In this document: positions 363 through 29,481 of the stretch, piece after piece
Layout of the letters: each line of letters starts with the position of its first letter
Position numbering within the stretch: position 1 is the first letter of the stretch
NCBI GenBank assembly: GCA_017302355.1
Contig: JAFLDQ010000020.1
Location: 1-32,292, forward strand
From: Dechloromonas sp.
GTDB lineage: Bacteria > Pseudomonadota > Gammaproteobacteria > Burkholderiales > Rhodocyclaceae
Direction of reading: 5' to 3'
Length of the DNA stretch: 32,292 nucleotides
Program-made: the position numbers and the translations under genes
Notes under the pieces: model-generated
The model's input: the letters and a program-made list of their open reading frames with translations, nothing else
Databases searched by the model: none
Told to the model about the DNA's origin: nothing

Positions 363-1715
363 TCATTGGCCGGCCTCGCGCACCACCCTGGCGAGTTCCT
401 CGGCCGCTTCAAGAACCTCTGTCGCATCCTCTCCTTCGACCATGACCCGCAGCAAGGGCTCAGTCCCCGAAGCACGCAGCAGGACGCGACCCCTGCCGGA
501 AAGGCGACTCTCGATGTCTTCCCGCGCCCCACGAATCGAATCGTCGTCCTGCCAGGGAAAGCCCTTGACCATCGGCACATTGATCAGCTTCTGCGGATAG
601 AGTTCGAGATCCCCCAGCAAGCTGGCCAGGTCGCCGCCCGACTCCCTCAACGCCGCCAGCACCTGCAGGGCGGCGACCGTACCATCCCCGGTGGTGTGAC
701 GATCGAGGGCGAGGATGTGCCCCGAGTTCTCTCCGCCGTAGATCCACCCTCTGTCCTGCAGCATCTCGAGGACGTAGCGGTCTCCGACGGCCGCCCGCGC
801 GAAGGGGATGTCCATCTTGCCCAAGGCATGCTCGAGCGCCAGATTGGTCATCAGCGTTCCAGCGACCCCCCTGACCTGTCCGTGCTTCGCGCGACTCCGG
901 ACAATCGCGTAGAGCAATTGATCGCCATCGTAGAGATTCCCCTGGGAGTCCACCATCTGCAGGCGGTCGGCATCGCCGTCGAGGGCGATCCCGAGGTCCG
1001 CGCCTTCGGCGAGGACAGCCTCGCACAGGGCGCGGGGCGCCGTCGCGCCACATCCGTCGTTGATGTTGAGGCCGTTGGGCTGCGCGCCGATGGCAACCAC
1101 ATCGGCGCCGAGCTCATGGAAGACATCGGGCGCCGTGTGGTAGGCTGCCCCGTGCGCACAATCGACGACGATGCGCAGGCCGCGCAGATCGAGATCGTTG
1201 GGAAACGTGCTCTTGCAGAATTCGATGTAACGGCCGCGCGCATCGCCGATCCGCTTCGCCCGCCCGAGATCGGCCGCCGCCACGCAAACCATCGGCTGAT
1301 CGATGACCTCCTCGATGGCGTGTTCGACATCGTCCGGCAGCTTGGTGCCCTGCGCCGAGAAGAACTTGATGCCATTATCGTAATACGGGTTGTGCGAGGC
1401 GGAAATCACCGCCCCCGCCTGCAGGCGCAGCGCCCGGGTCAGATAGGCGACCGCCGGCGTCGGTATCGGCCCGACCAGCGAGACATCGACACCCGCTGCC
1501 GAGAACCCGGCCTCCAGAGCGGCCTCGAGCATGTATCCGGAAAGCCGGGTGTCCTTGCCGATGAGGACCGCCGGACGGTCGCCCTCCGGCATCACGGCGC
1601 GTTCGAGCAGCACCTTGCCGGTCGCGTAGCCGAGGCGCATCACGAAATCAGGCGTGATCGGCGCTTGTCCGACATGACCGCGCACGCCATCGGTGCCAAA
1701 GTATTTCCTACTCAT
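363..1715 (-). CDS. glmM: Phosphoglucosamine mutase
   Basis: GlmM converts glucosamine-6-phosphate to glucosamine-1-phosphate, the step that feeds UDP-GlcNAc for peptidoglycan and LPS. The protein is 450 residues, the usual family length. It begins [13 protein letters not shown], carries the phosphoserine loop ISASHNP (catalytic Ser about 107), the Mg-binding DGDADR motif, the sugar-binding GENSGH motif and the C-terminal phosphate-binding [12 protein letters not shown]. The reading frame is open 28 codons further upstream, but that part is antisense-like and lies inside folP; the ATG at 1715 gives the family N-terminus. The start overlaps the folP stop by 8 bases, so glmM is translated together with folP, a common pairing in proteobacteria. 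Confidence 0.97.
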
Positions 1716-9764: not shown

Positions 9765-9775
9765 TTCGTCTATCC

Positions 9776-9862
9776 GTGAAACGTGAAACGTGAAACGTGA
9801 AATGTGAAAAACGCAAGGGTCAGAGGGCCGTCACGTTTCACTTTTCACCTTTCACTTCTCAC
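9776..9862 (-). repeat. Inverted array of 7-base repeats between carA and carB
   Basis: Read on the plus strand, five tandem heptamers of form GTGAAAN fill 9776-9810 (last base C, C, C, T, A). After a 19-base loop, their complements NTTTCAC fill 9830-9862 (one partial unit plus GTTTCAC, TTTTCAC, CTTTCAC, TTCTCAC). In mRNA this would fold into a hairpin of about 33 bp with mainly one mismatch per heptamer. The carA stop codon lies inside the outermost unit and the array ends 11 bases before the carB ATG. A 7-base period is incompatible with coding. The loop holds no gene. It resembles in plan the arrays around the four-helix-bundle gene at 27938-28350. Confidence 0.9.
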
Positions 9863-11010
9863 TCCTGTAAAGCAGCGACGCCGCGTGTCATGGTATCGAG
9901 GAAGCGGTCGAACAGGTAAGCAACGTCGTGCGGGCCGGGGCTGCCTTCCGGGTGGCCCTGAAAGGAGAAGGCCGGCACGTCGGTGCGCGCGATGCCCTGC
10001 AGCGAGCCGTCGAACAGCGAGACGTGGGTCACCCGCAGGTTTTCCGGCAAGGAATCCGCGTCGACCGCAAACCCGTGGTTCTGGCTGGTGATCAGCACCT
10101 GGCCGGTATCCAGATCCTTGACCGGGTGGTTGGCGCCGTGGTGGCCGAACTTCATCTTGACCGTCCGCGCACCGGAGGCAAGGCCGAGCAACTGATGACC
10201 GAGGCAGATGCCGAATGTCGGCACGCCGCGGCCGAGGAACTCACCAATGGCGGCGATCGCGTAGTCGCAAGGCTCCGGGTCGCCCGGGCCATTCGACAGG
10301 AACACGCCGTCCGGCTTCATCGCCAGCACGTCGGCCGCCGGTGTCTGCGCGGGAACGACGGTCAGCCTGACGCCGCGCCCGGCCAGCATGCGCAGGATGT
10401 TCTTCTTGACGCCGAAATCGTAGGCGACGACATGGAAGCGCGGCGCCGCGCCCGGTCCGTAGCCCTGCAAGGTCCACTCGCCCTCGCTCCAGGAATAGCC
10501 CTGCCTGGCTGAAACCACCCGCGCCAGATCCATCCCGTTCAATCCCGGGAAAGCGCGGGCCATCGCCAGCGCCTTGCCATCATCGACCCCGCCGGCCAGG
10601 ATGCAACCGGCCTGAGCGCCCTTCTCGCGCAGGATGCGGGTCAGCCTGCGCGTATCGATGCCGGCAATGGCGACGATGCCATGCCTCTTCAGATACGCTG
10701 ACAGATCGTCCTCGCAGCGCCAGCTGGAAGCGCGACCGGGCAGGTCGCGAATCACCAGTCCGGCGGCGTGGTTGGCGCCGGACTCGAAGTCCTCGGCGTT
10801 GCAACCCGTGTTGCCGATATGCGGATAGGTCAGCGTGACGATCTGCCGGCAGTATGAAGGATCGGTGAGGATCTCCTGATAGCCCGACATCGCCGTGTTG
10901 AACACGACCTCGCCACTGGTCACTCCGTCCGCGCCGATGGATTGCCCCCGGAACAGCGTCCCGTCGGCCAGGGCGAGAATGGCGGGGGTAAATGCGGGCA
11001 GCAACGACAC
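9859..11010 (-). CDS. carA: Carbamoyl-phosphate synthase, small (glutaminase) subunit
   Basis: CarA hydrolyses glutamine and channels ammonia to CarB. The N-terminal CPSase domain (from [11 protein letters not shown]) is followed by a class I glutamine amidotransferase domain with the nucleophile motif GICLGH and the C-terminal GHPE His/Glu pair. I chose the GTG at 11010: AGGAG lies 8 bases upstream and the protein (383 residues, [17 protein letters not shown]) has normal length. An ATG at 11043 would add 11 residues but lacks a well-placed ribosome site. The TGA stop falls within the first unit of the inverted heptamer array. Confidence 0.96.
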
Positions 11011-14632: not shown

Positions 14633-16162
14633 ATGCGTTCGATGTTGCGTTGCATCGCCACGATTCTTGCCGCCGCGCTCCTGCTGGTTGCCGCACCGGC
14701 GCGCGCCGCGGACCCGCCCGCCTTCACCGTAGAGCAACTGGACCAGATGCTGGCGCCGATCGCCCTCTTTCCCGACGCGCTCCTGTCGCAGGTGCTGATG
14801 GCCAGCACCTATCCGTCGGACGTCGCGCAGGCGGCCGACTGGGCATTCGCCAACCGCAATCGGGAGGGTGACGAGGCGGTCAAGGCGGTGCAGGACAAGC
14901 CGTGGGATCCCAGCGTGCAGTCGCTGGTCGCTTTCCCGCAGGTGCTCGCCATGCTGGGCGAGAAGCCGGAATGGGTGCATGACCTCGGCGATGCTTTCCT
15001 GGCGCAACCCGAGGCGGTCATGGACTCCGTGCAGTTTCTGCGCTCCAGGGCGAAGAACGCCGGCAACCTGAGCTCCAACGAACAGCAGATCGTCACTGTC
15101 GAGGCGGCGCCACCGCCGCCGCAGACCATCGTCGTCAATGCGCCACCGCCACCGGCGCAGATCATCACCATCGCCCCGGCGAATCCGCAGGTCATCTTCG
15201 TTCCCGTCTATAACCCGGTGCACGTATTCGGCCCCTGGTGGCACCCGCTGTTTCCGCCATTCTTCTTCCCGCCGCCGCCGCGCTGGGGATTTGGCTGGAA
15301 TCCGGTCGGCACCGCCATCTGGTGGGGCGTCGGCATCGGCGTCACCTACGCGCTGTGGGGCAGTGTCGACTGGCGCCGCCGCAACGTCAACATCAACGTC
15401 AATCAGTGGAACAACATCCACGTCAACAACCGCATCACGTCCAACAACCGGAACGTGAACTGGAACCACAATCCCGGCAACCGGAGGGGTGTCCCCTATC
15501 GCGATGCCGCGACCCGCGATCGCCTGGAGAACAGACTCGGCGAGCGCGGCGGCCGTCCGGATTTTCGTGGGCGCGAGGATCAGCGTGATCGAGCGCGGGC
15601 GGCGCTGAGTGACCGCGTCGGCGCCGAGAACCTGGACCGCGACGCGTTACGCAACCTCGACCGCAACCAGATTCCGCAGCGGTTGCCGGAAGGTTCCGGT
15701 ACGTCGGTGCGTGATCGCGCGGCCAACATCGACCGCGATCAGGCGCGTGACCGGGCCGCCAACCTCGACCGCGGGCAGGCACGCGACCGCGTGGCCAACA
15801 TCGACCGCGATCAGGCGCGTGACCGCGCCGCCAACCTCGACCGCAGCCAGGTGCAGAACCGCGCCGCCAACATCGACCGCGGCCAGGCCCAGAACCGCGC
15901 CGCCAACATCGACCGCGGCCAGGTGCAGAACCGCGCCGCCAATGTCGACCGTAGCCGCGCGCAGGAACGCAACGCCAGCGCCGCACGAACCAATCGCGAC
16001 AACGCGCTGCGTGGCGCCAACGACGGTCGCCAGGTCAGACAGCAGACCGACCGCGGCGCCGCGAGCCAGGCCGCCCAGCGCCACGCGGCGACCAATCGGA
16101 ACGCCGGCGCCGGCCGGCAAACGGCTGGCGCTGCTGGCGCCGCCCGCGAGCGCCGGCGGTGA
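14633..16162 (+). CDS. DUF3300 exported protein with Arg/Asn/Asp-rich repeat tail
   Basis: The 509-residue product has a Sec signal peptide (cleavage after ARA, about 25), the DUF3300 domain (about 32-195: LDQMLAPIALFPDALLSQVLMASTYP, WDPSVQSLVAFPQVL, IIIAPANPQVIFVPVYNP-type motifs), Pro-rich stretches, an aromatic-rich membrane-like segment (PLFPPFFFPPPP, then WGVGIGVTYALWG) and an Asn-rich region. The C-terminal ~230 residues are very hydrophilic and contain seven tandem 12-residue repeats. DUF3300 genes are commonly next to DUF2950 genes, as here; the molecular function is unknown. AAGGAG supports the ATG. The stop overlaps an alternative GTG of the next frame. Confidence 0.9.
   Translation: MRSMLRCIATILAAALLLVAAPARAADPPAFTVEQLDQMLAPIALFPDALLSQVLMASTYPSDVAQAADWAFANRNREGDEAVKAVQDKPWDPSVQSLVAFPQVLAMLGEKPEWVHDLGDAFLAQPEAVMDSVQFLRSRAKNAGNLSSNEQQIVTVEAAPPPPQTIVVNAPPPPAQIITIAPANPQVIFVPVYNPVHVFGPWWHPLFPPFFFPPPPRWGFGWNPVGTAIWWGVGIGVTYALWGSVDWRRRNVNINVNQWNNIHVNNRITSNNRNVNWNHNPGNRRGVPYRDAATRDRLENRLGERGGRPDFRGREDQRDRARAALSDRVGAENLDRDALRNLDRNQIPQRLPEGSGTSVRDRAANIDRDQARDRAANLDRGQARDRVANIDRDQARDRAANLDRSQVQNRAANIDRGQAQNRAANIDRGQVQNRAANVDRSRAQERNASAARTNRDNALRGANDGRQVRQQTDRGAASQAAQRHAATNRNAGAGRQTAGAAGAARERRR
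15710..15961 (+). repeat. Seven in-frame 36-base repeats encoding a 12-residue unit
   Basis: Seven consecutive 36-base units encode [RQ][DN]R[AV]AN[ILV]DR-x-[QR]-[AV], for example RDRAANIDRDQA and QNRAANIDRGQV. Units alternate between RDR/IDRDQ and QNR/IDRGQ variants, which shows that duplication happened in steps. The repeat is in frame and highly charged, so copy-number changes would lengthen or shorten the tail without frameshift. Confidence 0.93.
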
Positions 16163-25376: not shown

Positions 25377-25934
25377 ATGACCATCCCCGAGAATACCCAG
25401 GAACCGCTGCCGGAGAGCGAACCCGTCCGCGAGGAGGCCCCCGCAGCGGCGCCTGGCGGGCACACCGACACTCTGCCCAGCATCGAGGAACAATTCCGCC
25501 AGCTGGAACTGCAGGCCGCCGAGCATCACGACGCCTGGCTGCGCGCCAGGGCCGAAGGCGAGAACATCCGCCGGCGCGCCCGGGAAGATATCGCAAAAGC
25601 CCACAAGTTTGCCGTCGAGAAATTCGCCGGCGACCTGCTGGCGGTCAAGGACAGCCTCGAAGCCGCTCTCGCCGTACCCGAGCAGACCGCCGAGAGCTTC
25701 AAGGCGGGCGTCGAGCTGACGCTGAAGCAACTGGTTTCCGCCTTCGAGAAGAATGCGCTGACCGAGGTCAATCCGGCCGGCGAGAAATTCGACCCGTACA
25801 AGCACCAGGCGATGGGCATGATCGACTCCGAGCAGGATGCCAATACCGTGGTCACCGTGCTTCAGAAGGGTTACCTGATCTCCGAGCGCGTGCTGCGTCC
25901 GGCGCTGGTCATGGTCGCCAGGCCGAAGTCTTGA
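25377..25934 (+). CDS. grpE: Nucleotide exchange factor GrpE
   Basis: GrpE releases ADP from DnaK. The 185-residue protein has an acidic disordered N-terminus (1-32), a long dimerising coiled coil (about 33-105, including [17 protein letters not shown]) and the C-terminal beta-wing with [18 protein letters not shown] and the [26 protein letters not shown] motif. It leads the chaperone operon directly behind the sigma32-type promoter; dnaK starts 65 bases downstream. Confidence 0.97.
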
Positions 25935-25999
25935 AATCCGGGGCGCCGCCCCAAAATCCGGAACATCACAGTCATTCGCATCCAGCAAAGGAACAGAAC

Positions 26000-27937
<1,938 letters not shown>

Positions 27938-28350
27938 CGGGAAGGAGGAAGGGTAAAGGGTGTGAAACGCGCACACCGCGACCTCAAGGCCTGGCAGCAG
28001 GCGATGTCGCTCGTGGAAGGCATCTACACCCTGACCGCCGCCTTTCCTCCGGATGAACGCTTCGGCCTGACATCGCAGCTTCGCAGGGCTGCCGTGTCGG
28101 TGCCGAGCAACATCGCTGAAGGATTCGCTCGCAATGGCAGCAAGGAATTACTGCAATTCCTCGCCATCGCGGGCGCTTCGCTTTCGGCATTGGACACGCT
28201 GCTCGAACTGGCCAGCCGGCTCGGCTACCACAAGGAGAGCGATAACTTGAGAAAGGCAGTGGATGAAGTGTCGGGTTTGGTAATGGGTCTCAGCGCGTCA
28301 ATCCGCCGCAAGCTGTAACCCTTCCCTCTTCCCCCTTCTCCCTTCTCCCC
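27938..28350 (+). mobile_element. Putative IVS-like element: four-helix-bundle gene between inverted heptad arrays
   Basis: The whole dnaK-dnaJ spacer forms one unit. Left arm (27938-27961) is almost pure purine with AAGG every 7 bases (GGGAAGG, AGGAAGG, GTAAAGG). Right arm (28319-28350) is pure C/T with the complementary period: CCCTTCC, CTCTTCC, CCCTTCT, CCCTTCT, CCCC. The arms are mutually complementary and enclose one gene of the family best known from intervening sequences in 23S rRNA. The left arm begins directly after the dnaK stop and the right arm ends at the dnaJ ATG. Normally dnaJ follows dnaK closely, so an insertion is likely. No target duplication can be defined and mobility is inferred. 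Confidence 0.65.
27962..28318 (+). CDS. Four-helix bundle (23S rRNA IVS / S23-type) protein
   Basis: The 118-residue protein belongs to the four-helix-bundle family (TIGR02436, S23/IVP, related in fold to Avd of diversity-generating retroelements). It shows the hallmark pattern: [11 protein letters not shown] near the start (Trp11), [15 protein letters not shown] (29-43), [13 protein letters not shown] (45-57), then [23 protein letters not shown] and a short RLGY turn before the last helix. Avd binds nucleic acid, and a basic surface is plausible here, but the role of free-standing members is unknown. It starts with GTG; the ribosome site is the GGAAGGG/GGAGG of the left arm. It is read in the same direction as dnaK and dnaJ and would be cotranscribed on heat shock. 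Confidence 0.88.

Positions 28351-29481
<1,131 letters not shown>

Follow-up and report, generated by a model that had tools for sequence, protein, structure and literature searches.

Opposed heptad arrays frame S23/IVP four-helix genes in operon spacers and in 23S rRNA

The stretch of DNA considered here (the window) comprises 32,292 nucleotides of a Dechloromonas sp. contig (JAFLDQ010000020.1), and a small gene is lodged in it between dnaK and dnaJ, with spacers on both sides that repeat at intervals of seven bases. The features of the locus are as follows:

25931..27937, +: dnaK, the upstream neighbour (open reading frame list; HSP70, E 3.2e-260)
27938..27961, +: 5' heptad array, purine, AAGG every 7 bases, from the dnaK stop to the start codon of the gene (period-7 p=0.0026 against shuffles)
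27962..28318, +: S23/IVP four-helix gene, 118 amino acids, GTG start (PF05635, TIGR02436; solved homologs 2gsc and 2rld)
28319..28350, +: 3' heptad array, pyrimidine, ending at the dnaJ ATG (period-7 p=0.0006 against shuffles)
28351..29481, +: dnaJ, the downstream neighbour (open reading frame list, profile match)

The gene matches PF05635 with an E value of 4.1e-32 and TIGR02436 with one of 1.9e-30; the element holds this one open reading frame, of PF05635 only, and no transposase. The 24-base spacer upstream carries AAGG three times at a 7-base spacing, which amounts to only about three units (period-7 score 8.4), and the 32-base spacer downstream holds about 4.4 heptads (score 17.6), with Tandem Repeats Finder reporting a period of 7 at 28319-28349. 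For periods 4-6 and 8-11 the scores of the two spacers do not exceed 5.6. The succession of a purine array after dnaK, an S23/IVP gene and a pyrimidine array reaching the dnaJ ATG, as set out in a preliminary description of this DNA, is borne out, with period 7 significant on both sides. The same description took the ends of the element to be complementary, and for the window itself this stands only in part: the element is predicted to fold with the gene enclosed by a stem of the two spacers (z -3.83, 100 shuffles), whereas mutual pairing of the two spacers shows no excess over same-letter shuffles (p=0.17). No Rfam match was found within the window, and the element sits between dnaK and dnaJ, not in 23S rRNA. 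The purine 5' array probably doubles as the source of ribosome-binding purines for the gene. Elsewhere in the window, a tandem repeat with a 36-bp period (15709-15951) lies within a long open reading frame that probably encodes a repetitive protein, and is unrelated to the heptad element.

Since the window's own spacers are insufficient for much of a conclusion, comparison across the family decides. For this comparison, 58 loci of a species-genome collection and the loci of whole-genome searches gave 160 distinct elements, 152 of them with full flanks; excluded were the 8 elements lacking full flanks, any match whose E value exceeded 1e-8 and duplicates recognised by an identical 60-base key. 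Flanks were called complementary at a local alignment score of at least 13. By this measure the flanks are complementary at 107 of the 152 family genes. Among the controls, the same holds for 4 of 408 other open reading frames in the window and the genome-contig loci, for 14 of 1982 positions chosen at random and for 68 of 1511 swapped pairs; the 45 family genes below the cut-off include that of the window, which misses it narrowly with an arm score of 12.5. By subset, complementary flanks were found at 42/56 genes of the genome contigs and window, 6/14 of one whole-genome search set, 20/25 in the family of genome G001, 24/28 in the phylum of G006 and 15/29 in the phylum of G008. The survey loci are partly related, so that p values overstate their independence; the effect nonetheless recurs in separate phyla. 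A further 20 loci from plasmids and viral contigs, which include near copies (L381 and L382 have identical flanks), gave 17 with complementary flanks, namely 7 of 8 plasmid loci (7 of the 8 cyanobacterial, from 8 of 33 plasmid records taken) and 10 of 12 IMG/VR contigs, and in the phage records searched there was no match to the family gene.

The periodicity seen in the window is likewise shared. A best period-7 segment scoring at least 10 is present on the 5' side of 89 of the 152 elements, on the 3' side of 93 and in both arms of 70, as compared to 17 of 1021 random positions. Among other periods, period 8 was found 11 times on either side, and periods 5, 6, 9, 10 and 11 between 0 and 2 times. 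At a strict threshold in 400-kb samples, both arrays were detected at only one of three family genes in G420 and not at the single one in G229 (0/1). A comparison of other family members with controls had been proposed in the preliminary description, and its outcome, in the survey and in the plasmid and viral set, favours what was claimed there. At the level of sequence comparison, the heptad frame around S23/IVP genes is confirmed as real and general, beyond what chance provides.

The arms have median lengths of 4.4 heptads (5') and 4.6 heptads (3'), with 4-5 heptads the commonest and a range from 3 to more than 10. The units vary greatly among elements, and include AAGGGGG, GTGAAAC, GGGAAAC, GTGAGGA, AGTGGTC, TTAGCAG, AATCGTG and more; in 64 of the 70 elements the 5' arm is rich in G. 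Within one element, the two arms match at 6-7 of the 7 unit positions in 49 of 70 cases, compared with 193 of 1969 swapped pairs. The order of units is another matter, as only 3 of 56 permutation tests gave p<0.05, with a small excess overall (mean 21.45 vs 20.47, Wilcoxon p 0.038). The possibility that the arms are exact inverted repeats was thus rejected, because the order of units is hardly conserved between them; the arms rather repeat a single unit in opposite directions, and exact pairing is not the thing that selection preserves. The complementary ends of the preliminary description are to be corrected in this sense. In orthologous dnaK-dnaJ elements the two arms change jointly, being of AAGGG in locus L004 and of GTGAAAC in L018 and L020, with proteins that are 66-68% identical. 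More generally, units agree at 6 or more of 7 positions for 85-91% of the pairs whose proteins are at least 70% identical, for 55% of those at 60-70% and for about 2-4% of those below 60%.

With respect to placement, 89 of the 113 elements with both neighbours determined (151 examined, matches with E above 1e-10 left out) lie between co-directional genes, compared with a baseline of 145 of 389. The median spacing is 51 bases from the upstream stop to the start codon, and 38 bases from the stop to the next start. Core operons with a heptad-framed gene in a spacer include dnaK-dnaJ, glyA-nrdR and ahcY-metF; the glyA-nrdR neighbours were confirmed, and the glyA-nrdR clade retains AAGGG arms. On plasmid locus L388 both neighbours are on the opposite strand. 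On two cyanobacterial plasmids (L389 and L391) the gene lies between CRISPR-associated genes (cas6/cas4 and cas10/cmr3-type). The family itself is large, with at least 7967 proteins matching PF05635 at E<1e-3, and turned up in 116 of the 148 genomes sampled from one phylum. One genome of 2.5 Mb (G516) has 29 PF05635 matches, the family being present in all 10 searched genomes of that phylum.

Members of the family with the same build also occur inside 23S rRNA. In two genomes from the family of G001, G205 and G090, the gene lies within 23S rRNA (Rfam RF02541) and has heptad arms, which in G205 are CAGAGGACAGAAGACAGATGACAGATGACAGA and TCTGTCCTCTGTCCTCTGTCTTCTGTCCTCTG; in G090 a second, gene-less heptad hairpin is present elsewhere in that 23S gene. 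The earlier proposal of an element resembling an intervening sequence (IVS), adapted to operon spacers, is supported by these 23S members together with the co-directional placement of most others. In the accessible part of a report on the Coxiella IVS (PMC4990558), tandem GACAGAT heptamers that vary among strains precede the S23p open reading frame, the 23S IVS is excised by RNase III in vitro, and the S23p protein is seemingly not made. The 23S rRNA IVSs of Coxiella and others thus resemble the elements described here in the S23/IVP open reading frame, in the complementary ends around it and, for Coxiella as for G205 and G090, in the presence of heptads. The window element differs in residing in an mRNA spacer, where cutting by RNase III would be an analogy, and the seeming absence of the Coxiella protein stands against the purifying selection evident on the gene here (median pN/pS 0.07 over the 40 closest pairs examined).

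The history of the gene is one of persistence at a site combined with absence from many relatives. At 27 dnaK-dnaJ elements, the identity of the protein tracks that of DnaJ (Mantel r 0.73, p 5e-4). A dnaJ match was obtained in 196 of 199 genomes and 30 dnaJ loci were compared. The gene is missing between dnaK and dnaJ in the window's nearest DnaJ relatives (G072, G187 and G122), as it is in most relatives of G001, so that the empty site for which the preliminary description proposed to look does exist and losses or separate gains are frequent there. Among the 30 loci, that of G001 (L129) has the element. In the array test that of G116 proved to hold a heptad hairpin without the gene, and L139 and L141 resemble it by eye. 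In the gene tree, which was built quickly and in which 35 of 73 forks are weak, 5 site changes are required where the minimum possible is 4; the one move seen is that of the glyA-nrdR clade, which sits inside the dnaK-dnaJ elements. Sites are therefore sticky, and free hopping among them was rejected. Recent transfer between the window lineage and L001 was considered too, and is not supported, because the gene shows a lower DNA identity (79.6%) than either the dnaK end (88.6%) or dnaJ (83.7%), and protein identity at dnaK-dnaJ follows DnaJ.

Heptad hairpins are not confined to the gene, as is evident from the following:

9775..9866 (arms 9775-9809 and 9831-9866), -: gene-less heptad hairpin in the carA-carB spacer of the window, unit GTGAAAN, fold z -3.90
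L002 3847-3938; L007 972-1058; L008 3837-3928; L018 3920-3999; L020 3929-4004: gene-less hairpins between grpE and dnaK
L105, about 705-799, reverse strand: gene-less hairpin in the G090 23S rRNA gene

The unit of the carA-carB hairpin differs from the dnaK-dnaJ arm unit of the window. In 648 kb, comprising the window and the loci, 38 array pairs lie at the gene and 13 others were listed; of these, L024 in fact surrounds a family gene that had been removed as a copy, another (L058) encloses a 372-base gap with no family gene detected, and the five grpE-dnaK pairs have the unit of the downstream dnaK-dnaJ element. Samples of 400 kb from six genomes contain 0-2 pairs per genome, with 2 of the 6 pairs overall at the gene, and 50 kb of E. 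coli contain no paired heptad arrays. G229 is unusually rich in arrays, with 73 of period 7 and 35 of period 8 in 400 kb (L267-L286), yet has only one inverted pair at a looser threshold.

Pattern searches extend these observations to whole genomes. GTNAGGA arrays are present in 9 of 199 genomes, 4 of which lack the family gene; the nine include G116, G085 and G131, whose sole gene-bearing element shares the unit (p 6.5e-5, post hoc and with kinship ignored), with the proviso that the three belong to one clade of the gene tree and that G116, which prompted the search, is not independent. GTGAAAN arrays are present in 5 of 199 genomes, none with a family gene, with 25 matches in G062; G012, in which no family gene was found either, has 13 matches. 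Reversed control patterns also match, and are not independent since the reversed units are rotations of themselves. By eye, the arrays are paired at 17 of 19 places in G116, G085 and G131, 8 of 11 in G062, 5 of 6 in G012 and 2 of 2 in G161. One unit is common to several loci in G116, G085, G131, G012, G062 and G009, and units differ in G001 and in the window. In the Gallionellaceae, the family of G009, AAGGG arrays were recorded for 14 of the 29 genomes in which the gene passes the cut-off versus 5 of the 31 without (p 0.012, or 0.024 without G628, whose sole match is its own arm). Of 43 gene-less hairpins, 17 have the sequence AAACC directly after the 5' arm (shuffle mean 1.26, maximum 5), compared to 2 of 70 gene-bearing elements, and the two forms therefore differ beyond the gene itself. 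Loops with AAACC include those of L341, L354 and L371, and some G062 loops (L360, L361 and L364) are similar across loci by eye. At L372 in G012, two complementary heptad arrays are separated by roughly 250 bases that look like coding sequence, and no family gene was seen there. That hairpins lacking the gene exist, in part in genomes where no family gene was detected, indicates that the arrays need no gene at the same place. The preliminary description, in which the arrays are the ends of an element, is to be corrected in that such hairpins also occur without the gene.

Heptad arrays have been noticed before in other settings. Heptamer repeats of TAACTGA are described in Beggiatoaceae (PMC4679880), and heptanucleotide sites in Geobacter metallireducens, of which class 3 consists of five heptads and is said to occur mostly in pairs (PMC2700814); in the parts of these reports at hand both are intergenic, as are the arrays here. 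The terms 'four-helix' and '23S' are absent from the main texts of the two papers, so neither makes a link to the four-helix gene there. The accessible part of the Coxiella report notes heptamers but not a wider link to the family (PMC4990558), and a search conducted mostly without subscription papers found no other tie between heptad arrays and the family. The suggestion that heptad ends may be undescribed holds for the wider link within the literature covered, and gives way for Coxiella, where heptamers were already reported. The survey also touched on diversity-generating retroelements, in that two weak family matches (L111 and L113) scored 10 and 8, under the arm cut-off. Both have a nearby motif that we take to resemble the variable repeat of such retroelements. 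The Avd protein of these retroelements belongs to a homologous four-helix family, according to the portion of the source available (PMC10053308).

On balance, we consider it probable that the element is a cassette of the IVS type, its heptad stem being free of register and probably cut open by RNase III. Such a cassette would consist of one S23/IVP four-helix gene between two oppositely oriented arrays of one unit, mostly of 4-5 heptads. On transcription of the operon, the arrays could pair with each other whatever the heptad register, and the resulting stem would enclose the gene; we infer that this stem forms in the cell and is cut by RNase III, by analogy with 23S intervening sequences. Opening of the stem would separate the host messages from the insert, rendering insertion harmless, and the four-helix protein may in turn recognise the heptad frame. 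The units of the two arms would be kept alike through pairing or through recognition by the protein.

If recognition were the whole explanation, a pentameric four-helix ring could read the heptads, one per subunit, with the arms as candidate binding sites whose unit is preserved by recognition and not by pairing. We regard this as a tentative possibility. The solved homologs 2gsc and 2rld have 5 chains each, the Xanthomonas member is described as a homopentamer in the accessible part of PMC4990558, and the predominance of arms with 4-5 heptads, together with the paired five-heptad sites of Geobacter metallireducens (PMC2700814, in part), suggests one heptad per subunit; conservation of the unit, but not of unit order, between arms is likewise in keeping with recognition, as is the sharing of units among similar proteins. 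That last correlation would equally be produced by shared descent, however, and arm lengths of 3 to more than 10 heptads speak against it. A broader version, which we find doubtful, would unite S23/IVP proteins and heptad hairpins in one undescribed repeat-and-protein system spanning multiple phyla: the ring would take one heptad per subunit, the 7-base period would be the footprint of one subunit, the arms would be alike because one protein reads both, and the two forms of the system would be hairpins without the gene and cassettes with it, the latter in rRNA IVSs, operon spacers, plasmids and viral contigs.

REP/REPIN sequences are a familiar case of intergenic hairpins that are dispersed and may have a protein of their own (RAYT). 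The heptad hairpins resemble them in both respects, with the differences that here the unit varies freely between elements, the period is 7 and the element contains no transposase. The hairpins might on this analogy be independent REP-like repeats that have spread in operon spacers and 23S rRNA, with the gene a passenger or a helper in trans. Gene-less hairpins in the carA-carB spacer, the five grpE-dnaK spacers and the 23S gene of G090, their genome-wide occurrence in G116, G085, G131, G012 and G062, the last two without a family gene, and the AAACC that sets them apart all point in this direction. We nevertheless judge it unlikely, since 0-2 pairs per 400-kb sample is a general abundance that cannot account for arrays at 70% of family genes, and since AAGGG arrays are commoner with the gene in the Gallionellaceae and gene lineages stay at one site. 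Far less plausible is an ordinary host gene whose spacers collect heptanucleotide microsatellites through replication slippage. In many bacteria heptanucleotides reportedly outnumber every other class of repeat (PMC4679880, in the part available), and the loss of unit order would suit such an origin, but slippage yields no unit-matched arrays in opposite orientation on both sides of one gene, other open reading frames of the same loci only rarely have complementary flanks, and other periods are nearly absent.

For the IVS-type cassette and the family as a whole, a hallmark present in 107 of 152 sampled members represents an anatomical rule for PF05635, a large family of unknown function, and one that opens direct tests by RNase III mapping and by protein-heptad binding. 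Core operons can carry such frames between their genes, and the heptad frame joins the puzzle of fragmented 23S rRNA with that of unexplained heptamer repeats. Scattered oddities, among them rRNA inserts, genes in operon spacers and heptad arrays, are in this way tied into one kind of element.
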